Both the position numbers and the translations under genes were made by a program. Under the pieces are notes generated by a model. That model saw only the letters and a list, made by a program, of their open reading frames with translations, made no database searches and was not told the DNA's origin. This document shows, piece by piece, positions 18,186 to 42,981 of a DNA stretch of 64,000 bases (position 1 is its first letter; every line of letters begins with the position of its first letter). The stretch is taken from assembly GCF_003612125.1 (NCBI RefSeq), contig NZ_RAWI01000003.1, positions 1 through 64,000 on the forward strand, given 5' to 3'. Source of the stretch: Corallococcus praedator (GTDB lineage Bacteria; Myxococcota; Myxococcia; Myxococcales; Myxococcaceae).

Positions 18186-19412
18186 CTACTCGTAACGGAG
18201 GGCTTCCACCGGATCCAGGTTCGCGGCACGCGCGGCCGGCCAGATGCCGAACAGCAGCCCCACCACGGCGGAGAAGAGGATGCTGCTCACCACCGTGAGC
18301 GGCTGGACCGCCGCGGCCAGCGGACTGAAGAGGGACACCAGCTGGGCCGCCGCCAATCCCACCGCCGTGCCCAGCGTTCCGCCCAGCGCGGACACCGCCG
18401 ACGCCTCCATGAGGAACTGCAGGATGATGGTGCGCCGATGGGCTCCCAGTGCCCGGCGGACGCCGATTTCGCGGGTCCGCTCGCGCACGGACACCAGCAT
18501 GATGTTCATGATGCCAATGCCTCCCACGAGCAGACAGATGAGGCCCACTCCCACCGCCACGCCATAGAGCGCCCCGGTGAGCTGCGCGTAGGTGTTCGCC
18601 AGCATCTCCGGACGGTTGAGCGTGAAGTCATCCGGCTGCCCGGGGGGCGTGCCCCGCACGCGGCGCAGGATGCTCACCAACTGCTGCTCCGCCTGCTGCA
18701 CATGCTCGGGCCGGTCCACCTTCATGGAGATGGACAGCGACTTCTCCTGGCCAAAGCGATCCACGAAGGTGCGGAAGGGCACGAACACCCGCAGGTCCTG
18801 GTTCGTGTCCAGCATCCGGCCCTTGGGCGACAACGTCCCCACCACCCGGAACGCCCTGCCCTCGATGCGCACCTGACGCCCCAGCGCGGGCACCTTCGGA
18901 AACAGCGCGGCCACCACCTCCGAGCCGAGCACCGCCACCGCCTGCCCCGAAGCGTCGTCCTCCGGCGTGAGGAAGCGCCCCGTCTTCACCTCCAACGCTG
19001 TCGTCTCCTGGTAGTCCTGCGTGACGCCCGCGATCTCCACCTTGGAGACCTGCTCGCCGTCCGCGGCCACGTCCGCCTGGCGTTGAACATGCGGCGAGGT
19101 ATGGCTGATGAACGTGGCCTGCAACCGCACCTGCTCCACCTGCTGCACCGTGAGCGGCTTGCGCTTGCGGTACATCCACCAGTCCCCGGTCATCACCCAG
19201 GGAAAGCGAGACGCGACCACGGTGTGCGGCCCCAGCGACGCGAGCTGACGCTCGAAGGAGCTGTTGAGGCCCTGGATGATGCCCACGATGGCCAGGAGCG
19301 TGGCCACGCCAATCCCGATGCCCAGCGTCGTGAGCCCCGTGCGCAGGCGGTTCGCCGCCAGGGAGAAGAGCGCGATGCGCGCCCCCTCATAGACATCCAC
19401 CCGCAGGCTCAT
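18186..19412 (-). CDS. ABC transporter permease, MacB/FtsX type (first of pair)
   Basis: 408 residues. Same architecture as its downstream paralogue: N-terminal helix (LTTLGIGIGVATLLAIVGIIQG), MacB_PCD-like periplasmic domain and FtsX core with VSVRERTREIGVRRALGAH. The two share the ending DPVEA(M/L)R-x-E. A pair of distinct permeases suggests a heterodimeric transporter, with its ATPase and membrane-fusion partner encoded elsewhere. Gene order and 6-bp spacing indicate one transcript reading toward 16947; the promoter probably lies in 19413-19578. Confidence 0.92.
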   Translation of the reverse strand: MSLRVDVYEGARIALFSLAANRLRTGLTTLGIGIGVATLLAIVGIIQGLNSSFERQLASLGPHTVVASRFPWVMTGDWWMYRKRKPLTVQQVEQVRLQATFISHTSPHVQRQADVAADGEQVSKVEIAGVTQDYQETTALEVKTGRFLTPEDDASGQAVAVLGSEVVAALFPKVPALGRQVRIEGRAFRVVGTLSPKGRMLDTNQDLRVFVPFRTFVDRFGQEKSLSISMKVDRPEHVQQAEQQLVSILRRVRGTPPGQPDDFTLNRPEMLANTYAQLTGALYGVAVGVGLICLLVGGIGIMNIMLVSVRERTREIGVRRALGAHRRTIILQFLMEASAVSALGGTLGTAVGLAAAQLVSLFSPLAAAVQPLTVVSSILFSAVVGLLFGIWPAARAANLDPVEALRYE

Positions 19413-19578: not shown

Positions 19579-21312
19579 TCACGGCGTGAGCTGGTAGAGC
19601 CGGTACTCGTCATCGGAGTACAGCAGGGTGAACTCGGGGTGCGCCGGGTCCGTCGCCTCGAACACCGCGTGCGTGGCGCCGTAGCGGGAGCCCAGCCCCC
19701 GCAGGCGCGCGGCGTCCGAGTTCTGGTAGCCCTGCTTGAGCACCGCGCGCATCGCGTTCACGCGCTCCTCCCAGGTCTTGCCTCCGTTGTCGCGCGTGGC
19801 GAGCACGTCGAAGGGCTGGCACCCGCAGAGCGCTTCCATGCGCTGCTTCCAGTCCAGCATGAAGGCCAGGCTGAAGGAGCCCTCCGCCCCGTCCTTGTAC
19901 GTGGTGAACGTGGCGCGCTTCGCCCCGAAGCGGAACGCCAGGTCCCACTCGTGGAAGAAGGGGGGAAGCACCACCAGCGCGTCCTTCGGCAGGTGCTGCT
20001 CCGACCACGCCATCATCCGCCAGCCCTTGTACATGTCCAGGCGGGGCAGGAAGTTGGGCGGCACCTTGAAGTAGTAGATCCGGATCGCGAGGATGAGCGG
20101 CGCGGCGATGACTCCCAGCGCCACGGGCCAGCGCAGCCCCATGGGACGGGGAGGCGTCCGCGCGGCGGGCCGCAGCAGGAAGACCGCCAGCATCGCCGGG
20201 AAGGACACCTCCAACTGGACGGTGGAGAAGCCCAGGTACAAGAGCGCCGCCGCCACTCCGGGGAGCTTGCGCTCGCCGGGCGCGGGCCATGTCTCCAGGA
20301 GCCACGCCGCGCCACAGACGGCCGCGAGGTAGGGCACGAAGCGCAGGACCTCCAGCAGGTGCAGGTGCAGCGCCGTGGGCAGGTGCAGCACCTCCGTGCC
20401 CAGCACGCCCAGGACACAGGTGAAGGCCACGCCGCACAGGTACGCCTCCACCGGGCGGCTGCGGTGCGCGCGCAGGGACAGGCCCAGCACGACCAGGGGC
20501 ACCAGCAGCTGCAACCACACGACGGCGGTCCAGTCGCGCGGATAGTGGTGCCAGCTCACCAGCACGCGCGTCAGCAGCACCCATTCGTCGGGCGGCGGGA
20601 AAGGCACCCCGGCGGCGGCCCCCTGACGCAGCATGGGCACCAGCAGCGGTGAGGCCGCGAGCATGCACAGCAGCGGGCCGGTGACGATCGCCAGGCGCTT
20701 CTCGCGGTCGAAGAGCGCGGCGAACCACAACAGGATGGCCGCATGGATGGCCGTGGTGGGGTGGATGAGGAACACCAGCCCCGTGAGCACGAAGGCGGCG
20801 CCATAGCGGCGCTTCACCCCCAGCACCAGCGCGAACAGCAGCGGCCCCAGCGACACGGTGCGGTTGAGCACCAGCTCGTCCAGCATGGGGATGCCCGCGT
20901 AGCTGCGCGGAATCAACACCGACAGCATCGCGACCGTCGCCACCCACTCCGAATACCGGCCCGGATAGAGAGCGCGCGCCAGGGCAGAGGTGCCCGCCAG
21001 CATCAGCGCGACGGACGCGATGTGGACGACGGCGTACAGCACCTCCACCGGAACGTGGCGCACCAGCGGCACCTGCAGCGTCCAGAAGAAGCTCGGGTGG
21101 TTGGCCGCCGCCTCGATGAGCGGATCCCCCTTGAGCAACGACGGATCCAACTCCCGCAGCAGGAAGCCCAGGTGGATGGCGTGGTCGACGATGCCGAAGG
21201 AGTAGCCGTTGATGACGAACCAGGTGCAGGTGAAGAGCGCCAGCACCGCCAGCCGGAACCCCCAGCTCACCCGTTCCTGAAACACTTCTGGCCGAGGGAC
21301 TTCCGCTGACAT
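19579..21312 (-). CDS. Polytopic membrane protein, possible GT-C-type enzyme
   Basis: 577 residues from the ATG at 21312, which opens an amphipathic leader and a first helix (FRLAVLALFTCTWFVINGYSF). Ten or more hydrophobic segments follow. After helix 1 comes an acidic loop (VDHAIHLGFLLRELDPSLL), similar in position to the donor-binding loop of GT-C transferases, and the C-terminal about 130 residues are soluble (LPPFFHEWDLAFRFGAKR, ATHAVFEATDPAHPEF). No recognised family by eye; a GT-C glycosyltransferase or related lipid-linked enzyme is a reasonable guess. It is divergent from the MFS gene by 189 bp. Confidence 0.6.
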   Translation of the reverse strand: MSAEVPRPEVFQERVSWGFRLAVLALFTCTWFVINGYSFGIVDHAIHLGFLLRELDPSLLKGDPLIEAAANHPSFFWTLQVPLVRHVPVEVLYAVVHIASVALMLAGTSALARALYPGRYSEWVATVAMLSVLIPRSYAGIPMLDELVLNRTVSLGPLLFALVLGVKRRYGAAFVLTGLVFLIHPTTAIHAAILLWFAALFDREKRLAIVTGPLLCMLAASPLLVPMLRQGAAAGVPFPPPDEWVLLTRVLVSWHHYPRDWTAVVWLQLLVPLVVLGLSLRAHRSRPVEAYLCGVAFTCVLGVLGTEVLHLPTALHLHLLEVLRFVPYLAAVCGAAWLLETWPAPGERKLPGVAAALLYLGFSTVQLEVSFPAMLAVFLLRPAARTPPRPMGLRWPVALGVIAAPLILAIRIYYFKVPPNFLPRLDMYKGWRMMAWSEQHLPKDALVVLPPFFHEWDLAFRFGAKRATFTTYKDGAEGSFSLAFMLDWKQRMEALCGCQPFDVLATRDNGGKTWEERVNAMRAVLKQGYQNSDAARLRGLGSRYGATHAVFEATDPAHPEFTLLYSDDEYRLYQLTP

Positions 21313-21501
21313 GACTTGCGTTGCTCTCCGGCAGCCAGGCACGTGCCCCGAACCGCTCCATCTCTCTACCGCAAGTTCGCGGGTATCGGGGAGTATCTGG
21401 GGCTTCCGGGCCTTCCTTTTTTGTGAGATGCAGGGAGGGCTTGTGCGTGTGACACGCGGCGAGGCATTCGTCGCGGAGCGCCGCCCTCCTGGAAGACTCG
21501 C

Positions 21502-22878
21502 ATGACCGAGCCCGTCGGCCACTCCCGCCGTTTCCTGTTGCTCTGGGTCGCCCAGACGGTGTCGCTCGTCGGCTCGCACCTCACGGCGTTCGGCCTGGGC
21601 GTCTGGGTGTATCAGAGCACCCAGTCGACAATGATGTATTCACTGGTGGCCCTGGCCAACCTGGCCCCGCGGGTGCTCTTCGCGCCGCTGATGGGCGGGT
21701 TCGTGGACCGCCGCGACCTGCGCTCCGTGTTGATCGCCGGCCATGTCGGCGCCGGGGTCTGCTCGGTGGCCATCGCCCTGCTCTTCTTCACCGGGCGGCT
21801 GGAGGTCGCGGCCATCATCGGCCTGTTGACGCTGGCGGCCGTCTTCAACGCCATCCACCTGCCTGCCTTCAGCAAGGCCACGGCCCTGCTGGTGCCGCCC
21901 GAAGGCCTGGGCAAGGCCAACGGGCTCACGCAGCTGGGGGTCGCCCTGGGGTATCTGGTGGCGCCGCTGATGGCGGGCATGCTGATGCCCCACATCGGGG
22001 TGCTGGGCATCCTGCTCATCGACCTGACGACCTTCGTGTTCGCCGTCGCCGTGCTGGGCGGCCTGCGGCTCATCCCCTTCGACACCTCCGTGGGAACCCA
22101 GGGCCATGCGTCCGACCCGCTCCTGTTCCTGCGGGACGCGGCCGAGGGCTGGCGCTACATCCGCGCGCGCCGGGGGCTGCTGGTCCTGCTGCTGCTCATC
22201 ACCGCGATGAGCTTCAACCTGGGGATGATCCAGCTGCTCATCACCCCGCTGATGCTGTCCTTCGCCAGCGTGCCGGTGCTGTCCCTGGTCCTCTTCACCG
22301 GAGGCATGGGCATGGTGGTGGGCAGCGTCGCCATGATGTCGTGGGGTGGCCCCCGCCGTCGCGCCCAGGGCGTGCTCGGGTTCCTGCTGCTCCAGGGGGT
22401 GTTCCTGCTCGTCGGCTCGCTGCGGCCCCTGGCGCCGCTGGTGGCGGCCGGGGCCTTCGGGGTGCTGCTCACCGTCCCGCTCATCACCGCGTGCGACCAG
22501 TCCATCTGGCAGCGGCTCATCCCCACGGAGATCCACGGGCGCGTGATGGCCGTGCACTCGGCGGTGTCCGGGGCGTCGGTGCCGGTGGCCTACCTGCTGG
22601 CGGGTCCGCTGGCGGATCGCGTCTTCGAGCCCTGGATGATGCCGGGAGGCCTCTTGGCCGGAAGCGTCGGTCCCCTGATTGGCGTGGGTCAGGGCCGGGG
22701 TATCGGGCTCATCTTCGCGGTGCTGGGCTTCGCCACGTTCCTGTTCGTCGCGCTCGCGGCCCTCTCCTCCAGCCTGCGCCGCGTCGAGGATGCGCCCGCG
22801 GTGCCCGTCGCCTCCGCGCCGCCCGCGGAGGACAACCCGCCAGCTCTGGCCAAGGCCGCGGGCTCGGAGCGCTCCTGA
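21502..22878 (+). CDS. MFS transporter
   Basis: 458 residues, 10-12 hydrophobic helices. The opening FLLLWVAQTVSLVGSHLTAFGLGVWVY and the loop FAPLMGGFVDRRDLRSVLIAG are typical of the MFS_3/drug-efflux-like subgroup that sits in many secondary-metabolite and macrolide-efflux loci (MefA-like). The C-terminal tail is Pro/Ala-rich and cytoplasmic. Substrate unknown. Export of a small molecule, possibly the product of the nearby NRPS/PKS, is a guess based only on distance (2.6 kb). Confidence 0.88.
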   Translation: MTEPVGHSRRFLLLWVAQTVSLVGSHLTAFGLGVWVYQSTQSTMMYSLVALANLAPRVLFAPLMGGFVDRRDLRSVLIAGHVGAGVCSVAIALLFFTGRLEVAAIIGLLTLAAVFNAIHLPAFSKATALLVPPEGLGKANGLTQLGVALGYLVAPLMAGMLMPHIGVLGILLIDLTTFVFAVAVLGGLRLIPFDTSVGTQGHASDPLLFLRDAAEGWRYIRARRGLLVLLLLITAMSFNLGMIQLLITPLMLSFASVPVLSLVLFTGGMGMVVGSVAMMSWGGPRRRAQGVLGFLLLQGVFLLVGSLRPLAPLVAAGAFGVLLTVPLITACDQSIWQRLIPTEIHGRVMAVHSAVSGASVPVAYLLAGPLADRVFEPWMMPGGLLAGSVGPLIGVGQGRGIGLIFAVLGFATFLFVALAALSSSLRRVEDAPAVPVASAPPAEDNPPALAKAAGSERS

Positions 22879-22894: not shown

Positions 22895-23848
22895 CTACCC
22901 GCGCGAGGCCTGCTTCGGCTGGGAGACCGGCGAGAGGGGACGCACCTCGTCCCGCATCGGGAGCGACACCGTCCGGCCCTGCGCTTCCGCGGGAAGGGCC
23001 ACGTCCGGCAGGCGGTCCAGGCGCTGCCGCAGCCGCGCCAGACCCCAGAGCATGCGCAGGGCGTCCATGCCGGGGACGATCTTCGAGCCTTCAACGTCCG
23101 CCCAGTCGATGGGGACCTCCAGCGCCCGGGCCTGACGCCGCTTCATCAACGCCAGCAATTCCACATCCAGCAGCCAGCGCTCTTCCTTCAACACCGGCAG
23201 CAGCGGCTTGAGCAGCGAGGCGCGGAAGAACTTCACCCCGCATTGGGTGTCATAGAAACGCAGCTGGAATTGTAAATCTGTGAAGGTCGCGAAGAGCCGG
23301 CCCTGGAGGTGACGGAAGAGATTGCGGCTCACCTGCCGCCCCGCCATGAGGATGCGAGACCCGGCCAACACATCCACGTCCGGGGACGCCGCCGCCAGGG
23401 CCGCCAGCCGGAAGAAGTCCGCCGCGCCCACCGAGCCATCCGCGTCCAGGAATGCCAGCCACGCCGCCTCGGGTGAGACACTCCGCCAGCCGCGCCGGAT
23501 GGCGGACCCCTTGCCACCGTTGCGCTCGGCGGCCACGTAGGAGACGCGGTGGGGGGAGCCTGCCCGTGCCAGCATCGTCTGGGCGGCCGTCACACAGGCG
23601 CGCATCCGCTGCGCGTGTTCCGGGGTGCTGCCATCGTCGGAGACGATGATCTCCACCACGGGGAAGGGCTGTCCGATGCCCGCCTGGACCAGCTCCCCCA
23701 CGTAGGGAGGAAGCCGCTCGCCTTCATTATATGCAGGGATGATGACGCTGACGGTGACCGGGCTCACGTCATCAGCATACACACCTTTTAGACTGATTTC
23801 TCCTGTTTTATTAAATAAACCGGTTGAGACAGGAGTCTGCATATTCAT
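22895..23848 (-). CDS. ALG5-like glycosyltransferase family 2 (polyprenyl-phosphate glucosyltransferase-like)
   Basis: 317 residues. GT2 core: VSVIIPAYNEGERLPP, VSDDGS, RNGGKGSAIRRG, catalytic DADGS. The second half carries features specific to dolichyl-phosphate glucosyltransferases (ALG5 type): DTQCGVKFFRAS, EERWLLDVELL and VEGSKIVPG. It would load glucose (or another sugar) on a polyprenyl phosphate at the cytosolic face. No C-terminal membrane helices are seen. The first about 27 residues lie in unusually AT-rich DNA without a good ribosome site, so the real start may be a GTG at 23767. It is divergent from an ALG10-like gene. Confidence 0.85.
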   Translation of the reverse strand: MNMQTPVSTGLFNKTGEISLKGVYADDVSPVTVSVIIPAYNEGERLPPYVGELVQAGIGQPFPVVEIIVSDDGSTPEHAQRMRACVTAAQTMLARAGSPHRVSYVAAERNGGKGSAIRRGWRSVSPEAAWLAFLDADGSVGAADFFRLAALAAASPDVDVLAGSRILMAGRQVSRNLFRHLQGRLFATFTDLQFQLRFYDTQCGVKFFRASLLKPLLPVLKEERWLLDVELLALMKRRQARALEVPIDWADVEGSKIVPGMDALRMLWGLARLRQRLDRLPDVALPAEAQGRTVSLPMRDEVRPLSPVSQPKQASRG

Positions 23849-23902: not shown

Positions 23903-25237
23903 ATGTCCATGATGGACACCGAACGGGCCCCCGCTGGCGCCCTCCCGCATTCACCGGAGGCCGCGTCGCCGCCTCTTGTTACCTCCTGGATTGGCTCGCG
24001 CGCCGAAACCCTGGGCGCCGCCGCGATCATCATCCTCACGTGCCTGTGGGCCTTCCTGCGCCTGCGCAACGGCGAAGTGGCCGCGGACGAAGGGGTGCAT
24101 GGCCTGCAGATCGTGACCCTGGCGGGTGGCAAGCTGGAGATCGCCAAGGGCCTGACGATGTTTCCCGGGTATCACGTCGTGCTGGTGCTGCTGGCCGGGC
24201 TGACGGGGGCGCGCACGTCCACGGGCATCCGGACGCTGAGCATCCTGGTGAGCCTGCCCGTCATCCCCATCTTCTACCTGCTGATGCGACAGGTGAACCC
24301 CCGCTTCTCCGCGGTGGCGACGCTCCAGCTGGCCTTCCTGCCCATCCTGTTCCCGTTCTTCTTCCTGCTCTACACGGACGCGTTCTCCCTGCTGCTGGTG
24401 CTGGTGTCGGTGCTGCTGGTGTTGCGCCAGCGCCGCAAGGCCGCGGCCGCCGTCGCCATCTTCTCCGTGCTCGTCCGGCAGACGAACATCATCTGTCTGG
24501 CGTTCGTGCTGGGGCTGGCCTACCTGGAGGATCACGGGCTCACGCTGTCCCGGCAGCAGCTGGTGTCGTTCCTGCGCCGGCACCTGCTCTTCGTCGTCGG
24601 ACTGGTGGGGTTCGCCGCCTTCGTGGTGTTCAACGGCGGGGTGGCCGTGGGGGACCGTTCCGCGCACCCGCTCAAGTTCACCCTGGGCAACGTGTACCTG
24701 TTCCTCTTCCTCTACTTCTTCCTGTCGCTGCCCACGAACCTGGCGGCCCTGCCCGCCGCCCTTTCGGGCCTGAAGGACAAGCGCGTCCTGGCCTTCGCGG
24801 TGCTGCTGTACGGGGTGTTCATGTACACATTCGTGAATACCCACCCCTACAACCAGCTCAGCGTGGAGGCCTTCCGCTTCTCCGACGACGCGAAGTTCGT
24901 GGGACAGGCGCCCTTCCTGCGCAATCAGTTGCTGCACATCGCGACCCAGGGGGCCCTTCCCAAGACGCTGTTCTTCATCCCGGTGCTGCTCTCCAGCCTG
25001 CTGCTGCTGAAGCTGAAGCTGGTGCAGCCGCGCTTCCTGCTCATCTACCCGCTGACGCTCCTGCTGCTCACGCCGTCCTGGCTCATCGAGCAGCGCTACT
25101 GCCTGGTCCCCCTGGCGCTGTTGCTGATGGCCCGCGAGCGCACCTCCCCGAAGCTCGAATACGCCACCGCCGCGCTGGCCTTCGTGGGCGCCGTGTTCTT
25201 CGCCTACGGAATCGACCAGTACCTGTTCTTCCTCTGA
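23903..25237 (+). CDS. ALG10/DIE2-like membrane glycosyltransferase
   Basis: 444 residues with about ten helices. It resembles eukaryotic ALG10 (dolichyl-phosphate-glucose-dependent glucosyltransferase) in several ordered motifs: ADEGVHGLQ in the first large loop where ALG10 has MDE-x-x-H-x-x-Q, FPGYHVVL for LPGLY, FFFLLYTDAFSLLLVL for the FFNFLYYTE region, and VRQTNIICLAF for FRQTNIIW. A later THPYNQ fits the HPY segment. GT-C enzymes of this type transfer a sugar from lipid-phosphate donors; the neighbouring ALG5-like enzyme could make the donor. Acceptor unknown; the adjacent biosynthetic cluster is one possibility. Confidence 0.72.
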   Translation: MSMMDTERAPAGALPHSPEAASPPLVTSWIGSRAETLGAAAIIILTCLWAFLRLRNGEVAADEGVHGLQIVTLAGGKLEIAKGLTMFPGYHVVLVLLAGLTGARTSTGIRTLSILVSLPVIPIFYLLMRQVNPRFSAVATLQLAFLPILFPFFFLLYTDAFSLLLVLVSVLLVLRQRRKAAAAVAIFSVLVRQTNIICLAFVLGLAYLEDHGLTLSRQQLVSFLRRHLLFVVGLVGFAAFVVFNGGVAVGDRSAHPLKFTLGNVYLFLFLYFFLSLPTNLAALPAALSGLKDKRVLAFAVLLYGVFMYTFVNTHPYNQLSVEAFRFSDDAKFVGQAPFLRNQLLHIATQGALPKTLFFIPVLLSSLLLLKLKLVQPRFLLIYPLTLLLLTPSWLIEQRYCLVPLALLLMARERTSPKLEYATAALAFVGAVFFAYGIDQYLFFL

Positions 25238-25342: not shown

Positions 25343-25360
25343 AATGACTTGGTGTGCCAT

Positions 25361-25387
25361 CACCGGGAAGGGTGCTTCTTCCCGGTG
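25361..25387 (+). promoter_or_regulatory. Leader hairpin upstream of the NRPS gene
   Basis: A perfect 10-bp stem (CACCGGGAAG at 25361-25370 with CTTCCCGGTG at 25378-25387) and a 7-nt loop. No T-tract follows, so it is not a standard terminator. It lies in the predicted 5' leader and may affect mRNA stability or readthrough. Confidence 0.4.
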
Positions 25388-25489
25388 CTGCGACGACATC
25401 CTCACGCCCCTCCGACAGGCATTTACCCCGTCACCTGGGAGCGGCTCCTGTCGCCGACTCTTGGGGATTCGACCCTTCGTCCCGCCGTG

Positions 25490-31939
<6,450 letters not shown>

Positions 31940-31946
31940 GCGGCCC

Positions 31947-34900
31947 ATGATGGACGAGCAGAATCCCCCGGACGCAATCGACGAGCTGGCCATCGCCATC
32001 GTCGGCATGGCCGGTCGCTTTCCCGGGTCCTCCGACGTGGAGGCCTTCTGGCGCAACCTGCGCGACGGCGTGGAGGGCATCCGCGCCTTCACGGACGAGG
32101 AGCTTCGAGCCCGGGGCGTGCCGGAGTCCGCGCTGCGCTCGCCGGACTTCGTCAGGTCCGGCGCGGTGCTGGAAGGCGTGGACCTCTTCGACGCGGGCTT
32201 CTTCGGGTACTCGCCCCGCGAGGCCGCGCTGATGGACCCGCAGCACCGCGCGTTCCTGGAGTGCGCGTGGGAGGCGCTGGAGCGCTCGGGCTTCGATCCC
32301 GAGACGTCCCGCTCCGTCGGCGTCTTCGCCGGCACCAGCCTCAGCACGTACCTGCTCTTCAACCTGCTCACGCACCGCGAGCTCATCGAAGCCGGCGACA
32401 CCTTCCAGGTGATGATCGGCAACGACAAGGACTTCCTCGCCACGCGGCTCGCGTACCACCTGGACCTGCGAGGCCCCAGCCTCGACGTGCAGACGGGGTG
32501 CTCCACGTCACTGGTGGCGACCCACCTCGCGTGTCAGGCACTGCTGGGCTTCCAGTGCGACGTGGCCGTCGCGGGCGGCGTCTCCGTGGATGTGCCCCAG
32601 CGCACCGGCTACACGCATCAGGCGGGCGGCATCGCCTCTCCGGACGGCCACTGCCGGCCCTTCGACGCGCAGGGACAGGGCACCGTCTTCGGCAGCGGCG
32701 TGGGCATCGTGGTGCTCAAGCGGTTGGAGGACGCGCTCAGGGACGGCAATCCCATCCACGCCATCATCCGTGGCTCCGCCATCAACAACGACGGCGCGTC
32801 GAAGCTGGGCTTCACCGCGCCCAGCGTGGAGGGCCAGGTGGAGGTCATCGCCCGCGCCCAGGCCATGGCCGGTGTCACGCCGGATCAGATTGAGTACGTG
32901 GAGACGCACGGCACCGGCACGCTGCTGGGAGACCCCATCGAGGTCTCCGCGCTGACGCAGGTGTTCCGCGAGTCCACCGATGCCACCCGGTTCTGCGCGC
33001 TGGGGTCGGTGAAGTCGAACATCGGGCACCTGGATGCCGCGGCCGGCGTGGCGGGCCTCATCAAGGCCACGCTCGCGGTGGAGCACGGCCTCATCCCCCC
33101 GACGCTGCACTTCCAGACGCCCAATCCCAACATCGACTGGGAGCACAGCCCCTTCTTCGTCAACGCCGCGCCCCACGCGTGGAGCGCGAAGAACGGCCCC
33201 CGCCGCGCGGGCGTCAGCTCCTTCGGCATCGGCGGCACCAACGCCCACGCCATCCTGGAGCAGCCTCCCGCGCTGCCCGCGAGCGGACCGGGCCGGCCCT
33301 GGAAGCTGCTGGTGCTGTCCGCGAAGACGGAGGGCGCGCTGGACGCCGCGACCGTCCGGCTGGCGGAGCATCTGGAGCGTCACCCCGAGGTGGAGCTGGC
33401 CGACGTGGCCCACACGCTCCAGCGGGGTCGCAAGGCCTTCGCCCACCGCCGCTTCCTCGTGTGCGAGGACACGCGGGATGCCGCCGCGGTGCTCGCGTCG
33501 GGAGATCCGGAGCGGCTGGTCACGGCGAATGACCGGCTCGAGGACCGGTCGGTGGTCTTCATGTTCCCCGGCGGCGGCGCGCAGTACCTGCGCATGGGCG
33601 AGGCGCTGTACGCGCAGGAGCCCGTGTTCCGCGAGCACTTCGATGCGTGCGCGGCCCTGCTGAAACGCCACGCGGGTCTGAACCTGCACGACATCGTCTA
33701 CCCGGCGAGGACGGCCGAGGAGACGGAAGGCAAGCTGACGCGGACCTCCACCGCCCTGCCCGCGCTCTTCGTCGTCGAGTACGCGCTCGCGAAGCTGTGG
33801 ATGTCCTGGGGCATCGAGCCGCAGGCGATGATCGGCCACAGCGTGGGCGAGTACGTCGCGGCCTGCCTTGCCGGGGTCTTCTCGCTGGAGGACGCGCTCA
33901 AGCTGGTCTGCGAGCGCGGGCGGCTCTTCGAGCGACTGCCCCGGGGCGAGATGGTGAGCGTGTCCCTGTCCGAGGAGGCCATGCGGCCCCTGCTGGGAGA
34001 CCACCTCTCGCTCGCGGCCCTCAACGGGCCGGAGCAGTGCGTGGTCGCGGGAGACAGCGCGGCGGTGGAGCGGCTCGTCGCGGAGCTGGGCACGCGGGGC
34101 GTCGAGTTCCGCCGACTGCACATCGACGTGGCGGCCCACTCGCACCTCGTGGAGCCCATCCTGCCGGCCTTCGGGACGTTCCTCGCGAAGCTCAAGCTGG
34201 GAGCGCCCACGCGGCCGTTCGTCTCCGGCGTGAGTGGGACGTGGATCACCCCGGCGGAGGCGACGAGCCCGGACTACTGGGTGCGCCACCTGCGCCACAC
34301 GGTGCGGTTCGGCCAGGGGATTCAAACGCTGCTCACGGAGCCGAAGCACGTGCTCCTGGAGGTCGGCCCGGGCCGCACGCTCAGCTCCCTGGCGCGCTTG
34401 CAGATCGACCGCGCGTCCACGGTCCTCACCGCCGCGTCCATGCGCTCCACGCGCGAGACGCAGCCGGATGGCGCCTTCCTGCTCACCACCCTGGGTCGGC
34501 TGTGGCAGGCCGGCGTTCGCATCCCGTGGTCGCGCGTCCACGCGGATGAACAGCGCCGCTACGTGGTGCTGCCCACCTACCCCTTCGAGCGGCGTCGGCA
34601 CTGGATGGATCCGCGTCCCGTGCACACGGCCACTCCGGTGGCCACGCTCCAGAAGCGGCCGGACATCGGAGACTGGTTCTACCTGCCCTCTTGGAAGCGG
34701 GCCCTTCCGCCCGCGCCGCCCACGGAGTTCGTGTCCCAGCGCTGGCTGCTCTTCGTGGATGCGCAGGGGTTGGGACAACAGTTGGCCCACCGGCTCCAGG
34801 AGGCAGGCCACAGCGTCACCACCGTTTCGGAGGGCACGTCCTTCGGCCGCGCGGGGGAGTCGGCGTATGAGCTTCAGCCGGACCGCCGGGACGACTACGC

Positions 34901-36533
34901 GTCGCTGATGGCTTCGCTCACCGAGGAGGACCGGCTGCCCGAGCGCATCGTCCACCTGTGGAGCGTGGACGGCTCTTCTGAGACGGAACGGGAGCGCGTG
35001 CAGCAGCTCGGCTTCACCAGCCTGCTCCTGCTCGCGCAGGCGCTGGGGTCGCTGTCCCAGTCCGTGCGCCATCTCGATGTCCTCTCCACCGGTGTGCAGG
35101 CCGTCACCGGACATGAAGCGCTGTGCCCGGAGAAGGCCACTGTGCTGGGGCCGTGCCGCGTGCTTCCTCGCGAGATGCCGCAGTTGACGTGCCGGAGCAT
35201 CGATGTGGAGCTGGGGCGTACGGAGGCACTGGTCGAGCGACTGCTCGCGGAGCTGGCGGTCCCGGTGGCGGGCGCGACCATCGCCCTCCGGGGACACCAC
35301 CGCTGGGAGCAGGGCTTCGAACCCGTGAAGCTGCCTCCCACGGTGTCCCGGCTGCGGCAGCGCGGCACATACCTCATCACCGGTGGACTCGGTGGCATCG
35401 GCCTGGTGCTCGCGGAGCACCTCGCGCGCACGGTGCAGGCGCGGCTCGTGCTGCTCGGACGCTCCGCCTTTCCCGAACGTGCGGAGTGGGCGGGCTGGCT
35501 CGCCACGCACGGCGAGGCGGACGCGACCAGCCACCGCATCCAGCAGCTCCAGGCACTGGAAGCACTTGGCGCGGAAGTGCTCGTGCTGCGCGCGGACGTG
35601 GGCGATGCCTCGCGGATGGAGGCCGTGCTCCAACAGGCGCGGGACACCTTCGGCGAACTCCACGGTGTCATCCACGCGGCGGGCGTTCCGGCGGGCGGAC
35701 TGAGCCAGTTCAAGACGGCCGACTCCATGGCCACGGTCTTCCGGGCGAAGCTCCAGGGCACCCGGGTACTGCATGCGCTGCTGCGCGGCACGCCGTTGGA
35801 CTTCTTCATGCTGTGCTCATCGCGCACGGCCATCGTCGGGGACTTCGGCCAGGTCGAGCACTGCGCGGCCAATGCCTTCCTGGATGCCTTCGCCCAGGAG
35901 CGCGCGGCGGAGGGCGACGGACCGGTGTTCGCGGTGGGCTGGGACACGTGGCAGGAGGTGGGCCAGGCCGTCACCACCGCGATGCCGGACTCGCTGAAGC
36001 ACCTTCGTGACGCCCTGTTGGAACACGGCCTGAAGTCGGACGAGGGCCGTCGGGTGTTCGACCGCGTCCTGGGCGCGAAGCTGCCGCAGGTGCTGGTGTC
36101 CACGCAGGACCTTTCCGCCGTGCTCGCGAACAACCCCAATCCCTTCCAGGTCCAGGACCTGATGCCCTCACTCACGGACGCGCTGTCGTCCGCGGCGGCC
36201 GCCGGGGACGTGGAGGTCGCGGGCGGGGACACGGGGCAGAAGCTGGCGTCCATCTGGCAGCGGCTCCTGGGGGTGGAGCGGGTGAACCCCCACGACAACT
36301 TCTTCGACCTGGGCGGCAACTCGCTCATCGGGTTGAAGGTCATCGCGGAAGTGAAGCGCTCGATGGGCGTGGACCTGCCCGTCGTCAAACTCTTCGAGAA
36401 CCCCACCCTGGGCGCGCTGACCCGGTTGCTGGGCGGCGGCCCGGAGCCTGAAGCAGCCCCCACCTTCACGGAGCGCCGCACGCGCGGCGCCCAGCGCAGG
36501 GAGCGGTTCCAGCGCAAGCTGGATCCGAAGTAG
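31947..36533 (+). CDS. Type I PKS module KS-AT-KR-ACP with altered KR
   Basis: 1528 residues; ATG at 31947, and AAGGAG overlaps the NRPS stop. KS: Cys185 in TGCSTSL, HGTGT and NIGHLDAAAG. AT: Ser632 in GHSVGEY; where malonyl-type enzymes have HAFH and methylmalonyl-type YASH, it reads VAAHS, so the extender unit cannot be read from the motif. KR: NADPH site GGLGGIG near residue 1146 and Ser in LCSSRTA, but the catalytic Tyr position in the GQ-x-x-Y-x-AAN motif is His1305 (GQVEHCAAN, codon CAC at 35859), so reduction may be lost. ACP: Ser1459 in GGNSL. No DH or ER. The module would extend the acyl-glycine by one ketide and probably leave a keto group. Confidence 0.93.
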   Translation: MMDEQNPPDAIDELAIAIVGMAGRFPGSSDVEAFWRNLRDGVEGIRAFTDEELRARGVPESALRSPDFVRSGAVLEGVDLFDAGFFGYSPREAALMDPQHRAFLECAWEALERSGFDPETSRSVGVFAGTSLSTYLLFNLLTHRELIEAGDTFQVMIGNDKDFLATRLAYHLDLRGPSLDVQTGCSTSLVATHLACQALLGFQCDVAVAGGVSVDVPQRTGYTHQAGGIASPDGHCRPFDAQGQGTVFGSGVGIVVLKRLEDALRDGNPIHAIIRGSAINNDGASKLGFTAPSVEGQVEVIARAQAMAGVTPDQIEYVETHGTGTLLGDPIEVSALTQVFRESTDATRFCALGSVKSNIGHLDAAAGVAGLIKATLAVEHGLIPPTLHFQTPNPNIDWEHSPFFVNAAPHAWSAKNGPRRAGVSSFGIGGTNAHAILEQPPALPASGPGRPWKLLVLSAKTEGALDAATVRLAEHLERHPEVELADVAHTLQRGRKAFAHRRFLVCEDTRDAAAVLASGDPERLVTANDRLEDRSVVFMFPGGGAQYLRMGEALYAQEPVFREHFDACAALLKRHAGLNLHDIVYPARTAEETEGKLTRTSTALPALFVVEYALAKLWMSWGIEPQAMIGHSVGEYVAACLAGVFSLEDALKLVCERGRLFERLPRGEMVSVSLSEEAMRPLLGDHLSLAALNGPEQCVVAGDSAAVERLVAELGTRGVEFRRLHIDVAAHSHLVEPILPAFGTFLAKLKLGAPTRPFVSGVSGTWITPAEATSPDYWVRHLRHTVRFGQGIQTLLTEPKHVLLEVGPGRTLSSLARLQIDRASTVLTAASMRSTRETQPDGAFLLTTLGRLWQAGVRIPWSRVHADEQRRYVVLPTYPFERRRHWMDPRPVHTATPVATLQKRPDIGDWFYLPSWKRALPPAPPTEFVSQRWLLFVDAQGLGQQLAHRLQEAGHSVTTVSEGTSFGRAGESAYELQPDRRDDYASLMASLTEEDRLPERIVHLWSVDGSSETERERVQQLGFTSLLLLAQALGSLSQSVRHLDVLSTGVQAVTGHEALCPEKATVLGPCRVLPREMPQLTCRSIDVELGRTEALVERLLAELAVPVAGATIALRGHHRWEQGFEPVKLPPTVSRLRQRGTYLITGGLGGIGLVLAEHLARTVQARLVLLGRSAFPERAEWAGWLATHGEADATSHRIQQLQALEALGAEVLVLRADVGDASRMEAVLQQARDTFGELHGVIHAAGVPAGGLSQFKTADSMATVFRAKLQGTRVLHALLRGTPLDFFMLCSSRTAIVGDFGQVEHCAANAFLDAFAQERAAEGDGPVFAVGWDTWQEVGQAVTTAMPDSLKHLRDALLEHGLKSDEGRRVFDRVLGAKLPQVLVSTQDLSAVLANNPNPFQVQDLMPSLTDALSSAAAAGDVEVAGGDTGQKLASIWQRLLGVERVNPHDNFFDLGGNSLIGLKVIAEVKRSMGVDLPVVKLFENPTLGALTRLLGGGPEPEAAPTFTERRTRGAQRRERFQRKLDPK

Positions 36534-36543: not shown

Positions 36544-39500
36544 ATGGCGGACACCTTGACCGGCGCTGAAGTCGCCATCGTCGGCATCGCGGGACGCTTT
36601 CCCGGCGCGAAGGACCTGGACGAGTACTGGCGCAACATCTGCGACGGCGTCGAGTCCATCGTCCGGTACACGGATGAAGAGCTGCTCGCGCTCGGCGCGG
36701 ACCCCACGCTGCTGCGCACGCCAGGCTTCGTGAAGGCGGCGGCACGGCTGGAGGACTGCACCCGCTTCGACGCCGGCTTCTTCAGCTACACCCCGCGCGA
36801 GGTGGAGCTGATGGATCCGCAGCAGCGCCTCTTCCTGGAGTGCGCTTGGGAGGCCCTGGAAGGCGCGGGCCACCGGGGCACGCCGGACGAAGAGCTGCTC
36901 GTGGGCGTCTTCGGCGGCGCGGCCCTGAGCACCTACCTGCTGGTGAACCTGGCCTCCAATCCGACGGTGCTGCGCTCGGTGGATCCGCTCCAGCTCAACC
37001 TGGGCAACGCCGGCAGCTTCCTCACCACGCGCGTCTCCTACAAGTTGGATCTGAAGGGGCCCAGCTTCAACGTGGAGAGCGCCTGCTCCACGTCGCTCGT
37101 CGCGGTCCACGTCGCCTGCCAGAGCCTGCTCAATGGCGAGTGCGACCTGGCGCTCGCGGGCGGCGTCTCCATCAACCTCACGCAGCAGTACGGCTACCCG
37201 TTCATCGAGGGCGGCATCCTCTCACCGGACGGCCACTGCCGGCCCTTCGACGCGGACGCGCGGGGCATCGTCTTTGGCAGCGGCGCGGGCGTGGTGGCGC
37301 TGCGCCGCCTGTCGGATGCGCTGGCGGACGGGGACTTCATCCACGCGGTCATCAAGGGCTCGGCCGTCAACAACGATGGCGCGAACAAGGTGGGCTACAC
37401 CGCGCCCAGCGTGGACGGACAGGCGGAGGTCATCGCCGAAGCCCTGGGCAGCGCGGACGTCTCCCCGGAGTCCATCGCGTACGTCGAAGCGCACGGCACC
37501 GGCACCTCGCTGGGAGACCCCATCGAGGTCCAGGCGCTCAACAAGGCCTTCGGTGGCACCGATGCGCCGAAGCGCTCCTGTGCCCTGGGTTCGGTGAAGG
37601 CGAACATCGGTCACCTGGATGCGGCGGCCGGCGTCGCCGGATTGATCAAGACGGTGCTGGCGCTGCGTCACCGCAAGCTGCCGCCCAGCCTCCACTTCGA
37701 GCAACCCAACCCGCACATCCCCTGGAACAACGGCCCCTTCTTCGTCAACACGGACCTGAAGGAGTGGAAGGCCGGCAAGGAGCCGCGCCGCGCGGGTGTC
37801 AGCGCGTTCGGCATGGGCGGCACCAACGCGCACCTCGTGTTGGAAGAGGCTCCGGCGAGGGACACCGCTCCCGCCGCGCGTGCGACGCAGTTGCTGGTCC
37901 TGTCCGCGAAGACGCCCACGGCGTTGGACGCGATGACCGCGAACCTCGCCGCACACCTGCGCGCGCGGCCCACGACCTCCCTGGCCGACGTGGCCCACAC
38001 CCTCCAGACGGGGCGTCGGCGGTTCGCGCACCGGCGGGCGGTGGTCTGCGACAGCGTGTCGGACGCGGTGGAAGCGCTCGCGGGCGAGTCGCGCGCGCGG
38101 CGTCAGCTCACCGGCACCGAGGAGCGCACGGCGAGGCCCGTGGTCTTCCTCTTCCCGGGACAGGGCACGCAGTCCGTGCGGATGGCGGCGGACGTGTACC
38201 GGGGCGAGCCGGTGTTCCGCGAGCAGGTGGACGCCTGCGCGGCGCTGCTGAAGCCTTACCTGGGCTTCGACCTGCGGCAGGTGCTCTACCCCGCCACGGA
38301 GGCCACGGCCGACGCCGCACGCCAGCTCGAAACGACGCGGGTGACGCAGCCCGCGCTGTTCACCGTGGAGTACGCGCTCGCGAAGCTGTGGATGTCCTGG
38401 GGCATCGAGCCACAGGCGATGATCGGCCACAGCGTCGGTGAGTACGTCGCGGCCTGCCTCGCGGGCGTCTTCTCGCTGGAGGACGCGCTCAAGCTGGTGG
38501 TGGAGCGCAGCCAGCTGATGCAGGAGCTGCCGGGCGGCACGATGCTGTCCGTGGCGCTGCCGGAAGCGGAGCTGTCGCCGCTCCTGCCCCCGGACGTGTC
38601 GCTGGCGGCGGTCAACGCGCCCTCCTTCTGCGTCGTCGCGGGCCCCACGCCCGCCGTGGAAGCGCTCCGGGTCCAGCTCCTCGACAGGAAGGTGGCCTGC
38701 CGGGTGCTGAAGACGTCGCACGCCTTCCACTCGGGGATGATGGAGCCCCTCCTGGAGCCGTTCGCCGCCCGGGTGCGAAAGCTCACGCTCAAGGCCCCGC
38801 GCATCCCCTACGTGTCCAACGTCACCGGGACGTGGATCACCCCGGCGGAAGCCACCTCGCCGAAGTACTGGGCCACGCACCTGCGTCAGGCCGTGCGCTT
38901 CGCCGCGGGCCTGGAGACGCTGCTCCAGCAGCCCGACCGGGTGCTGCTCGAAGTCGGGCCAGGCCGCACCCTCACCACCTTCGCCAACCAGTTGGGGAAA
39001 GTGCGAGGCGTCCGCGTATCGGCCATCACCACCCTGCGCCATCCGGACGACGCGCAGTCCGACCTGAACGTGCTGCATGGGGCGATGGGCCAGTTGTGGA
39101 TGGAGGGCGTGGAGCCGGACTGGAAGCGCTACCACCGGGGCGAGTCCCGCCGCCGCATACCGCTGCCGACCTACCCCTTCGAGCGGCGCCGCTACTGGAT
39201 TGAGGCCAGCCACGTCCCGACGGTGGCCACCGGGGTGTCGACGGAAGTCTCCGCGGCCACCGTGGTTCCGGATGTGTCCGCGACCCAGCACCCGCGTCCC
39301 GCGCTGCGCACCACCTACGTCGCGCCCCGCACCGAGCAGGAGGGCGCCATCGTCCGCATCCTCCAGGACGTGCTGGGCATCGACCCGGTGGGCATCCACG
39401 ACAGCTTCTTCGACCTGGGGGGCCACTCGCTGCTGGCCACCGCCGTCGTCGGGCGATTGCGCGACACCTTCGGCGTGACGGTGCCGCTCCAGTCGCTGTT

Positions 39501-40932
39501 CGAAGCCCCTACCGCCAGCCAGCTCGCGGCGCTCCTGAACAACCTGGGCGTGGCCCAGGAGCCTCGGCACGAGGACGCGGCGAAGGATGCCCTCGTGCGT
39601 GCGCTGACCGCGCTCCAGGAGCAGCAGGCCGCGCCCAGGGAGCCGGAAGCGCCCACCGGCGTGGCCGTCCAGACATCCGCAAGCACCCGGCCGCTCCACG
39701 TGCTCATCCTGGCCATGGAGTACACGCCCAACATCGCGGGCGGCGTGGGCACGTATGTCTATGAGCTGGCCAACGGGCTCGCGCGCTCCGGCCACCGGGT
39801 GACGGTGCTGTCCTATACGCCCGGGGAAGCCCGCGTCGTGCGCCAGCCCAACGGCGTGACGGTGCACATGGTGCCGCCCGGCAAGGCGAGCTTCGCCCAG
39901 GCGGCGCACCTGACGCTGGTGCAGGGCATCCGCGCCTTCAACGAGGACCTGTACCAGTACGGCCGCGCGCGCATCGCGGAGGAGAAGCCGGACCTCCTGC
40001 ACTTCCACCAATGGCATACACACGAGGCCGCGCGCCGGCTGGGCCGTGAGTCAGGCGTGCCCGTCATCGGCACCAGCCACTACATCTCCGAGCCCGTGGA
40101 GCGGTGGTGGGGACAACAGCCGGACCCGGAGATCGTCGAACAGGAGCGCAGCTTCTACGACGGCGGCACCCACGTCGTGTCCGTGAGCGCCTCCATGAGC
40201 ACGCTCATCCGCGAGCAGTACCGCCTGCCTTTGGAGAAGCTCCACACCATCCACTGCGCGATGGAGCTGGAGCCCTTCATGAAGTCACCGCACGGCGCGG
40301 ACGCCTTCGCGAAGCTGCGCGCCACGGTGGCGGGGCCAGAGACGCGCGTCGTCCTCTACACCGGGCGCCTCCACCCGATGAAGGGCATCCCCGCGCTCTT
40401 CGCCTCCGCCGAGCGCGTGCTCGCCGCGAGGCCGGACACCGTCTACCTGCTCGCGGGCGGCACGGACTCGCGCGAGTCCACGCAGATGGTTCACCAGTTG
40501 CGCGAGCAATACGCGCCCCTGCTCGGCCGCATCAAGCTGCTGGGCAAGCTGCCGCGCTCGCAACTGGGGCTCCTGCACCGCATCGCGGACGTAGCGGTGG
40601 TGCCGTCCATCTACGAGCCCTTCGGCTACACCGCCATCGAGACCATGGCCTCCGGCGTCCCGCTGGTGGCCACCGACGTCGGAGGGTTGTCGGAGATCCT
40701 CCAGCACGGAGAGTCCGGCCTCCACGTCCCCGTCCGCCCCGTCTCCGGCAGCGAGCTGCATGAAGTGGAAGTCGCGCAGCTCGCCAACGCCACGCTCGCC
40801 CTCCTGAACGATCCGGCACGCGCCCGGAAGCTGGGCGACGCAGGCCAGCGCCGCGTGGCCGACCTCTTCGGCCTGGAGCGGATGATCACCGCCAACATCG
40901 CCCTCTACCGCCGCGTCCTCGGCGCCCCCTGA
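36544..40932 (+). CDS. PKS-glycosyltransferase fusion: KS-AT-ACP-GT4
   Basis: 1462 residues. GGAG overlaps the upstream stop. KS: Cys181 in SACSTSL, HGTGT, NIGHLDAAAG. AT: Ser630 in GHSVGEY and the malonyl-type HAFH (His726 region). No reductive domains. ACP: Ser962 in GGHSLLA. After a Pro/Ala-rich linker (about 1025-1048) comes a full GT-B glycosyltransferase of family 4 type (about 1050-1455): PNIAGGVGTYVYELA, the sugar-nucleotide EX7E motif in YEPFGYTAIE (Glu1358/Glu1366), and VATDVGGLSEIL. A glycosyltransferase covalently joined behind the last carrier domain suggests that the carrier-bound chain, or a freshly released one, is glycosylated on the assembly line. The frame is continuous with no stop. 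No thioesterase domain. Confidence 0.93.
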   Translation: MADTLTGAEVAIVGIAGRFPGAKDLDEYWRNICDGVESIVRYTDEELLALGADPTLLRTPGFVKAAARLEDCTRFDAGFFSYTPREVELMDPQQRLFLECAWEALEGAGHRGTPDEELLVGVFGGAALSTYLLVNLASNPTVLRSVDPLQLNLGNAGSFLTTRVSYKLDLKGPSFNVESACSTSLVAVHVACQSLLNGECDLALAGGVSINLTQQYGYPFIEGGILSPDGHCRPFDADARGIVFGSGAGVVALRRLSDALADGDFIHAVIKGSAVNNDGANKVGYTAPSVDGQAEVIAEALGSADVSPESIAYVEAHGTGTSLGDPIEVQALNKAFGGTDAPKRSCALGSVKANIGHLDAAAGVAGLIKTVLALRHRKLPPSLHFEQPNPHIPWNNGPFFVNTDLKEWKAGKEPRRAGVSAFGMGGTNAHLVLEEAPARDTAPAARATQLLVLSAKTPTALDAMTANLAAHLRARPTTSLADVAHTLQTGRRRFAHRRAVVCDSVSDAVEALAGESRARRQLTGTEERTARPVVFLFPGQGTQSVRMAADVYRGEPVFREQVDACAALLKPYLGFDLRQVLYPATEATADAARQLETTRVTQPALFTVEYALAKLWMSWGIEPQAMIGHSVGEYVAACLAGVFSLEDALKLVVERSQLMQELPGGTMLSVALPEAELSPLLPPDVSLAAVNAPSFCVVAGPTPAVEALRVQLLDRKVACRVLKTSHAFHSGMMEPLLEPFAARVRKLTLKAPRIPYVSNVTGTWITPAEATSPKYWATHLRQAVRFAAGLETLLQQPDRVLLEVGPGRTLTTFANQLGKVRGVRVSAITTLRHPDDAQSDLNVLHGAMGQLWMEGVEPDWKRYHRGESRRRIPLPTYPFERRRYWIEASHVPTVATGVSTEVSAATVVPDVSATQHPRPALRTTYVAPRTEQEGAIVRILQDVLGIDPVGIHDSFFDLGGHSLLATAVVGRLRDTFGVTVPLQSLFEAPTASQLAALLNNLGVAQEPRHEDAAKDALVRALTALQEQQAAPREPEAPTGVAVQTSASTRPLHVLILAMEYTPNIAGGVGTYVYELANGLARSGHRVTVLSYTPGEARVVRQPNGVTVHMVPPGKASFAQAAHLTLVQGIRAFNEDLYQYGRARIAEEKPDLLHFHQWHTHEAARRLGRESGVPVIGTSHYISEPVERWWGQQPDPEIVEQERSFYDGGTHVVSVSASMSTLIREQYRLPLEKLHTIHCAMELEPFMKSPHGADAFAKLRATVAGPETRVVLYTGRLHPMKGIPALFASAERVLAARPDTVYLLAGGTDSRESTQMVHQLREQYAPLLGRIKLLGKLPRSQLGLLHRIADVAVVPSIYEPFGYTAIETMASGVPLVATDVGGLSEILQHGESGLHVPVRPVSGSELHEVEVAQLANATLALLNDPARARKLGDAGQRRVADLFGLERMITANIALYRRVLGAP

Positions 40933-40958: not shown

Positions 40959-41735
40959 ATGGAGCCCACCCCGAACGCCACCGAGTCCTGGCTCTCCCAC
41001 CACACCCCGAGGCCGGAGGCGCGCGTGCGCCTGTTCTGCCTGCCGCATGCAGGCGGAGGGGCCTCGCTGTTCCGCACGTGGGCACCGCACCTGGCGCCCG
41101 ACGTGGAGGTGCTCCCCGTCCAGCTCCCGGGCCGGGAGAACCGCCTGCGCGAGACGCCCCTCACGGAGGTGCCCGCGCTGGTGGAGCAACTGGTGGACGT
41201 GGTGCGAGCGCGGCAGGACAAGCCCTTCGCCCTGTTCGGTCACAGCATGGGGGCGCTCCTGGCCTTCGAGCTGGCCCGGGCTCTGCGCCGCCACGGGCTC
41301 CCCGAGCCGCTGCACCTGTTCCTCGCAAGCTACACCGCGCCGCAATTGCTGACGCGCACCCCGCCCAAGGCACGGACGCACGAAGCGGATCCGGAAGTGG
41401 TGCGGGCCCTGCTCACCGAGCGGGGCATCCCCGAGTCGATGGGCGAGGAGCTGAAGCAGTTGGTCCTGCCGTCGCTGCTGGCGGACACGGCCGTCTGCGA
41501 AAGCTACCAGTACACCGAGGAGGCTCCGCTGGAGTGCCCGGTGTCCGCGTTCCGGGGCAGCGAGGACTACGTGCAGGAGCACCACCTGGAGGGCTGGCGC
41601 GAGCAGACGCGCGGTCCGTTCACGGCCCGCTCCTTCCTGGGCGACCACTTCTTCCTCCGGGACACGCCCCGGGGACTTTTGCAGGCCCTGCGCCGAGCGC
41701 TCGCGAGCCCTGCGGGTTCCGCTCGGGCGGCCTGA
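40959..41735 (+). CDS. Type II thioesterase (alpha/beta hydrolase)
   Basis: 258 residues, RifR-like. Landmarks: FCLPHAGGGASLFRTW at the start, LPGRENRL, nucleophile Ser96 in GHSMGALLAFELA, an Asp in RGSEDY and His in GDHFFL. Type II enzymes free stalled carrier domains of the assembly line by removing wrong or dead acyl groups. Because no integrated thioesterase exists in this cluster, it might also release the final product. It begins 26 bp after the fusion gene. Confidence 0.93.
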   Translation: MEPTPNATESWLSHHTPRPEARVRLFCLPHAGGGASLFRTWAPHLAPDVEVLPVQLPGRENRLRETPLTEVPALVEQLVDVVRARQDKPFALFGHSMGALLAFELARALRRHGLPEPLHLFLASYTAPQLLTRTPPKARTHEADPEVVRALLTERGIPESMGEELKQLVLPSLLADTAVCESYQYTEEAPLECPVSAFRGSEDYVQEHHLEGWREQTRGPFTARSFLGDHFFLRDTPRGLLQALRRALASPAGSARAA

Positions 41736-42111: not shown

Positions 42112-42981
42112 ATGAGCACCAGTGCCGCGATGAAGCGCCCCGAGCCGCAAGCGCCCGAGCGCATCCCGATGATGTCCCGCCAGGAGTTCTACGCCAGCAT
42201 CGGCGGCCTGGATAAGCCGGTCATCTTCGTGGACGCCATGAAGGACTGGCCCTCCACGGCGAAGTGGACGTTCGACTACTTCCGCGACGCGCACGGCGAC
42301 AAGGAAGTGACGGTGGAGTGGCTCAAGTACGCGCACGGAGACAAGACCTCCGTGAAGCGCACCGGCACGGTGAAGAAGGTGAAGCTGCGCGAGTACGTGG
42401 ACGCGCTGAAGGCCCGGAACGAGCCGGAGGTGGGCTACCTCATCGGCAAGGACATGTACGCCGTCCTGCCGGAGCTGCTGGCTGACCTGCGCTTCCCCAA
42501 CTACGCGTCCCAGAAGCGCCTGACGGAGCAGCTCTTCTTCATGGGGCCCAAGGGGTCCTTCACGCAGCTGCACCTGGACCGCGCGCACAACCTGCACGCC
42601 CAGATTGTCGGCAGCAAGCAATGGCAGCTCTACTCCCCGGCGAGAGACGCGCAGCTGCGGCCCCGGAAGCTGGACTTCGTCTGGTCGGTGGTCAGTGAGT
42701 ACGACCTGGTGCCCGGCGGAGGCAATCCAGACGTGCTGCCCAACGGCGTGGCGCCGGACTACGACTTCACGCTGGAGGCCGGGGAGATTCTGTATGTGCC
42801 CTACGGCTGGTGGCACCGGGTGCTCACCACGGAGGCCTCCATCTCCACGAACCTGTGGTGGTGGACCTATTCGATGCTGGGCCGGATTGGCCCGGTGCTC
42901 GTGCCGTCACTGGCCAAGGGCTTCGTGAAGGGCCTGAAGAAGAAGTCCATCCGCCGTGGCTACTACGGCGACAAGGGCTGA
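42112..42981 (+). CDS. JmjC/cupin-8 Fe(II)/2-oxoglutarate dioxygenase-like protein
   Basis: 289 residues. Metal-binding HxD (His154/Asp156 in TQLHLDRAHN) and distal His235 (GWWHRV) form the facial triad; the aromatic-rich end (NLWWWTYSMLG) is typical of bacterial cupin-8 proteins. Such enzymes hydroxylate amino acids or small molecules. Eighteen bases separate it from the 105-residue protein gene, so it is almost surely part of the same operon, acting late on the fatty acyl-glycine-ketide product. It is the last gene before a 126-bp gap and the start of a block with different base composition. Confidence 0.85.
   Translation: MSTSAAMKRPEPQAPERIPMMSRQEFYASIGGLDKPVIFVDAMKDWPSTAKWTFDYFRDAHGDKEVTVEWLKYAHGDKTSVKRTGTVKKVKLREYVDALKARNEPEVGYLIGKDMYAVLPELLADLRFPNYASQKRLTEQLFFMGPKGSFTQLHLDRAHNLHAQIVGSKQWQLYSPARDAQLRPRKLDFVWSVVSEYDLVPGGGNPDVLPNGVAPDYDFTLEAGEILYVPYGWWHRVLTTEASISTNLWWWTYSMLGRIGPVLVPSLAKGFVKGLKKKSIRRGYYGDKG

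Follow-up and report, generated by a model that had tools for sequence, protein, structure and literature searches.

The closest described counterparts of a glycosyltransferase (GT) tied to an assembly line are of two kinds. MitB of mitomycin biosynthesis is a free-standing GT that depends on an acyl carrier protein (ACP) and acts on a discrete ACP carrying 3-amino-5-hydroxybenzoic acid (AHBA) (PMC8621148), while EfuA and FsoA are fungal terpene cyclase-GT fusions whose domains act non-consecutively and are more active when fused (PMC12667498). We analyzed a 64,000-nucleotide stretch of the Corallococcus praedator genome (contig NZ_RAWI01000003.1, positions 1 to 64,000; referred to as the window), in which a single gene encodes a type I polyketide synthase (PKS) module followed by a GT of family GT4. 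Like MitB, the GT4 of this locus is a putative partner of a carrier protein during the assembly of a natural product, but in three of 18 related clusters it is covalently joined to the PKS module. With EfuA and FsoA it shares the fusion of a scaffold-building enzyme to a GT decorating its product; these, however, are fungal and contain a terpene cyclase in place of the PKS. Searches of open-access full texts brought up no PKS-GT fusion from bacteria, which is weak evidence given that coverage was confined to such texts. The explanation we consider best, with a probability of roughly 0.62, is that normally adjacent module and GT genes were fused by loss of a stop codon and that the GT tailors the product at or after release, with a gain in proximity.

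The fused protein is encoded by one open reading frame (36544-40932, forward strand) that runs from ATG to stop and specifies 1462 amino acids in the order ketosynthase (KS), acyltransferase (AT), ACP and GT4. The Pfam scores for KS, AT, ACP and both GT halves were far over the cut-off, with the KS match covering residues 9-386 (E 1.7e-67 and 9.5e-46) and the GT matches comprising Glyco_transf_4 (1066-1243, 1.2e-24) and Glycos_transf_1 (1265-1435, 1.3e-26). All catalytic motifs were retained in the PKS half (ACSTS, VEAHGTGT, GHLDAAAG, GHSVGEY/HAFHS and LGGHSL) as well as in the GT half (GGVGTY, TGRLHPMKG and EPFGYTAIE, the EX7E motif). With KS, AT and ACP and their catalytic residues in one protein, the PKS half is a cis-AT type I extension module, and we take its AT to be malonyl-type based on the HAFH motif. 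Both Pfam halves, the EX7E motif, a glycine-rich N-terminal loop and GT4 matches in Foldseek place the C-terminal half among the GT4 enzymes with GT-B fold, and, going by the family, of the retaining type. A fused release domain (thioesterase (TE), TD or similar) is not part of this terminal module; the GT follows the ACP and the TE is a separate gene.

The best NCBIfam profile for the GT was TIGR02149 (Corynebacterium-type glycogen synthase GlgA), which at 151 bits against a cut-off of 302 does not include it. Foldseek matches to the GT model were sucrose-phosphate synthase, GlgM, MshA and BshA. Among these, GlgM, MshA and sucrose-phosphate synthase (6tvp, 3c4q and 6kih) were the best structure and profile matches and have the GT-B fold and GT4 motifs in common with the GT, but they act on sugar-phosphates or inositol-phosphate and are only about 22-26% identical to it. 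The donor is probably a nucleotide-hexose, judging from the profile and fold matches.

The frame was open across the junction in three independent assemblies, namely the window, a metagenome-assembled genome of the same genus (G007, PMG_225), which encodes a full-length fusion with 93.6% amino acid identity to the window protein, and Archangium lansinium (G060, one 13.8-Mb contig), whose full-length fusion is 85.6% identical. Per-domain dN/dS values (Nei-Gojobori method) between the window and G007 were 0.05 for KS, 0.18 for AT, 0.04 for ACP, 0.12 for GT and 0.44 for the ACP-GT linker, and between the window and Archangium 0.19, 0.33, 0.08, 0.16 and 0.53, respectively. The low values on both sides of the junction indicate that both halves are maintained as protein under purifying selection. 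A frame error at the junction is ruled out by this selection together with the agreement of the three assemblies. The preliminary description of this locus had reported a KS-AT-ACP module continuous with an intact GT-B enzyme (GGVGTY, EX7E) in 1462 residues, with the junction near 39600-39700, and had asked for the junction frame to be verified and for homologous fusions to be sought; open frame, Pfam and motifs bear out the architecture, the linker lies at 39541-39693, and the same fusion is present in G007 and Archangium lansinium.

Within the fused protein, the linker evolves fastest. Alignment revealed that it carries KDALVRALTALQE, homologous to DPEVxALLRMLAEL, the conserved C-terminal tail with which PKS proteins encoded separately from the GT end about 30 residues past the ACP; in the fused protein, about 20 more residues follow before the GT begins. 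The retention of this homologue indicates that the tail was read through in making the fusion. In an AlphaFold2 (AF2) model of ACP, linker and GT (mean pLDDT 74), ACP and linker were poorly determined and residues 1029-1047 had very low confidence; the linker is predicted to be largely disordered.

Homologue searches covered 59 related genomes and 96 Myxococcaceae genomes, and the distribution of the GT was followed over 195 Myxococcota genomes. The GT clade was narrow, with 18 of the 195 genomes represented, every one of them Myxococcaceae, and of the 96 Myxococcaceae genomes searched, 18 had a GT-bearing cluster, Myxococcus xanthus AM003 among them. The GT directly follows or is fused to the orthologous KS-AT-ACP module in all 18 clusters, from which we infer that GT and module serve one product; most likely, the GT glycosylates the product of this assembly line. 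Fusion was observed in three clusters, while the remaining 15 carry a separate GT gene whose ATG lies 12-34 nucleotides past the PKS stop, as in C. llansteffanensis (the same genus as the window genome), M. xanthus AM003, M. eversor, M. qinghaiensis, the AM401 Myxococcus species and Pyxidicoccus fallax (GT split over two contigs). The split clusters follow the same order of KS-AT-KR-ACP (KR, ketoreductase), KS-AT-ACP, GT, TE and cupin, and their GTs are 60-71% identical to that of the window with an N-terminus only about 8-12 residues longer. Separate genes in all close relatives, which the preliminary description had named as a refutation, were thus found in most but not all of them; nor is the fusion an obligatory, conserved feature of the orthologous clusters. 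In the searched genomes, no other PKS-GT4 fusion with a related GT was found outside the fused clade, unrelated GT families lying beyond this survey.

The three fused proteins formed one clade with a support of 100/100 in the GT tree as well as in the PKS tree, which indicates a single change of state. The split protein pair of another genome, G074, came out as sister to the fused trio with weak support (88/92 in the GT tree and 83/81 in the PKS tree), and this position makes fusion a more economical direction than fission. Its GT motif is altered to EPFPYTALE with the two glutamates retained. Most simply, the fusion would be a derived variant that arose from one stop-loss event. The fusion as an ancestral or general state was unsupported, with 15 of 18 clusters split and the fused trio in one clade.

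Even though GT and module are closely linked, the fusion does not imply that the sugar is added to an ACP-bound chain, since adjacency does not tell the timing. The free-standing GT of 15 clusters shows that the fusion is dispensable for the chemistry. The precedents are divided, as MitB glycosylates an ACP-bound substrate while unfused and the fused EfuA and FsoA act non-consecutively; from these and the split majority, we favor tailoring at or after release. Of the functional interpretation in the preliminary description, the real fusion and the functional link between GT and module stand, while glycosylation on the carrier or coupled to release does not follow from the fusion, given the free GT in most clusters, the separate TE and the non-consecutive action of EfuA and FsoA (PMC12667498). 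Several points weigh against the explanation we favor: substrate, donor and timing of the GT are inferred; the direction of fusion instead of fission is based on parsimony, with a support for the G074 sister position of just 83/81 in the PKS tree; the glycine code and KR inactivity described below were both read from motifs; and the analysis revealed no docking element from which to tell whether the GT sees the ACP.

A possible but rather doubtful alternative is that the GT, either by fusion or by docking, glycosylates the beta-ketoacyl chain on the terminal ACP before this chain is released. MitB provides a precedent for ACP dependence (PMC8621148), the GT is fused to or directly downstream of the ACP-bearing module in every cluster, and the post-ACP tail helix conserved in the split proteins could serve as a docking element; however, the GT is free in 15 of the 18 clusters with an N-terminal addition (about 8-12 residues) whose length is insufficient for a typical docking domain, the linker evolves fastest and is predicted to be largely disordered, and fused scaffold-enzyme/GT proteins can work non-consecutively (PMC12667498). 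We consider it unlikely that the cis-GT glycosylates the ACP-bound chain and thereby traps a reactive polyketo intermediate, with an ALG10-like lipid-linked-sugar transferase extending the sugar outside the cytoplasmic membrane. A fused GT that is non-functional or acts in another pathway, with neutral read-through as the nature of the fusion, appears very improbable, since the GT shows a dN/dS of 0.12-0.16 with all catalytic motifs retained in the fused clade and the fused version apparently spread horizontally together with the cluster, even though there was just one fusion event and the linker evolves fast. The least credible alternative is glycosylation-coupled release, in which either the GT itself or a sugar hydroxyl would free the chain from its ACP. 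The GT does occupy the usual place of a TE domain in a terminal module without a fused TE, but a separate RifR-like TE follows the GT in all clusters with that region covered, and GT4 enzymes, to our knowledge, use nucleotide sugar donors and carry no acyl-transfer residues. TreC and Pks13 do release onto free trehalose, but an alpha/beta hydrolase or TE carries out this step instead of a GT (PMC10682982). A takeover of release by the GT in the absence of a TE was likewise rejected as the main explanation, as a type II TE follows the GT.

Table 1. Features of the fused gene and its surroundings in the window
Feature	Position	Strand	Basis
Two MacB-like permease genes, edge of 26-kb block	16947..19412	-	Pfam; collinear blastn
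Polytopic membrane protein with DUF6798, within 26-kb block	19579..21579	-	Pfam PF20604, hydropathy
MFS exporter	21502..22878	+	Pfam PF07690; homologues in several split clusters
GT2, polyprenyl-phosphate-sugar-synthase-like, divergent	22895..23848	-	Pfam PF00535; weak NCBIfam/PDB similarity to undecaprenyl-phosphate sugar transferases
ALG10-like polytopic GT-C glycosyltransferase	23903..25237	+	Pfam PF04922, 98.7 bits against a cut-off of 27
FAAL-ACP-C-A-(luciferase-like monooxygenase)-PCP loading/NRPS protein	25349..31939	+	Pfam; NCBIfam TIGR04020 for the monooxygenase
Upstream PKS, KS-AT-KR-ACP	31950..36533	+	Pfam; KR motif
Fused KS-AT-ACP-GT4 protein	36544..40932	+	Single open reading frame and Pfam; fusion also in G007 and Archangium lansinium
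Ketosynthase domain, residues 9-435	36568..37848	+	Pfam PF00109/PF02801; Cys-His-His catalytic motifs intact
Acyltransferase domain, residues 534-856	38143..39111	+	Pfam PF00698, 8e-56; HAFH motif
Acyl carrier protein, residues 935-998, LGGHSL	39346..39537	+	Pfam PF00550, 2.1e-19
ACP-GT linker, about 51 residues	39541-39693	+	Alignment, split-PKS tails, dN/dS, AF2 model
GT4 glycosyltransferase domain (GT-B), residues 1051-1462	39694..40929	+	Pfam, PDB profile matches, Foldseek
Stand-alone thioesterase, nearest to type II TE RifR	40959..41735	+	Pfam PF00975; PDB match 3fla
Cupin/JmjC-type putative hydroxylase	42112..42981	+	Pfam PF13621; orthologues in clusters

The genes surrounding the fusion (Table 1) suggest a glycosylated lipopeptide-polyketide assembly line of an uncharacterised family. 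The adenylation (A) domain code of the FAAL-containing nonribosomal peptide synthetase (NRPS) protein was read from its motifs as DILQLGMVWK, which we take to be glycine-type. NRPS modules of the MtaG type carry a monooxygenase (MOX) inside the A domain; MtaG itself ends its line and makes an amide. The FAAL-NRPS protein has the order condensation (C)-A-MOX-peptidyl carrier protein (PCP) and the glycine-like code in common with MtaG, but its module stands at the start of the line, after FAAL-ACP. In G074 and some Myxococcus, the FAAL-NRPS gene stands in a different place with respect to the PKS genes. In the KR of the upstream PKS (near 35850), the catalytic Tyr is replaced by His (GQVEHCAAN); GQxxH was observed in all 18 clusters and the Asn after the catalytic position is Cys in most of them, while another KR in the window genome retains the normal Tyr-Asn. 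The upstream KR is probably redox-inactive as a conserved trait. The AT motif of the same protein is VAAH and neither HAFH nor YASH. TE and cupin are kept in fused as well as split clusters, and a 105-amino acid open reading frame lies between the TE and the cupin/JmjC gene.

In the proposed assembly route, FAAL would activate a fatty acid, the C-A-MOX-PCP module would add an oxidised glycine-like unit and the two PKS modules would add two ketide units, the first of them probably unreduced because the upstream KR lacks the catalytic Tyr. With an inactive KR, the terminal chain would be a beta,delta-dioxo thioester, and its cyclisation could give a pyrone with an enol left for glycosylation. 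The GT4 domain would use a nucleotide donor to attach a hexose to what the terminal module makes. This step would more probably take place at or after release through spontaneous cyclisation or the separate thioesterase, although transfer on the ACP is possible. The fusion itself would secure 1:1 stoichiometry and proximity and would add no new chemical requirement.

Comparison of the window with Archangium lansinium revealed a collinear block of 26 kb (16945-42971) with 82-86% nucleotide identity (blastn) that stops at the outermost gene at each end. Identity between the window and Archangium was 81% for phosphoglycerate kinase, 91% for the GT and 86% for the PKS-GT protein, in contrast to 96% for phosphoglycerate kinase and 70% for the GT between the window and C. 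llansteffanensis. These values and the sharp block edges point to intergeneric horizontal transfer of the fused cluster. Apparently, Corallococcus and Archangium came to share the fused cluster through movement of the whole 26-kb block, with phosphoglycerate kinase as a single marker providing thin evidence.

The gene directly upstream of the cluster encodes a member of the ALG10 family (GT59). This family was over the cut-off in only four of the 195 Myxococcota genomes, three of which carry the fused clusters, and among related clusters orthologues of the window gene were present only in G007 and Archangium lansinium. Apart from their separate GT gene, the split clusters differ in this respect, as no ALG10-like gene was found in their genomes (Myxococcus, Corallococcus and Pyxidicoccus); in its place they carry a GT87 (G011 and G013) or a second GT4 (G015 and G092). 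The second GT4 genes lie next to the TE (L033 10152-11363 and L057 6851-8071) and encode proteins 35-38% identical to the first. In the fused lineage, the GT2 and the ALG10-like GT-C enzyme may add more sugar during export as a polyprenyl-phosphate-sugar pair. The gene content suggests additional sugar on the product, attached outside the cytoplasm, and suggests that lineages differ in how the product is decorated with sugar.

The clusters point to a family of glycosylated lipopeptide-polyketides in the Myxococcaceae, with an ALG10-type GT-C enzyme in one of the lineages. The natural set of fused and split versions, which share the same GT and the same module, lets the effect of covalently joining a GT to an assembly line be measured.

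Two further genes were observed near the cluster. An open reading frame at 43962-46331 (forward strand) encodes a 789-amino acid protein with an N-acetyltransferase-like domain that, among eight genomes tested, was present only in the window and G007, with a weak partial match in Archangium. Adjoining the cluster on the other side, a 1473-amino acid WD40-repeat protein is encoded at 12518-16939 (forward strand).

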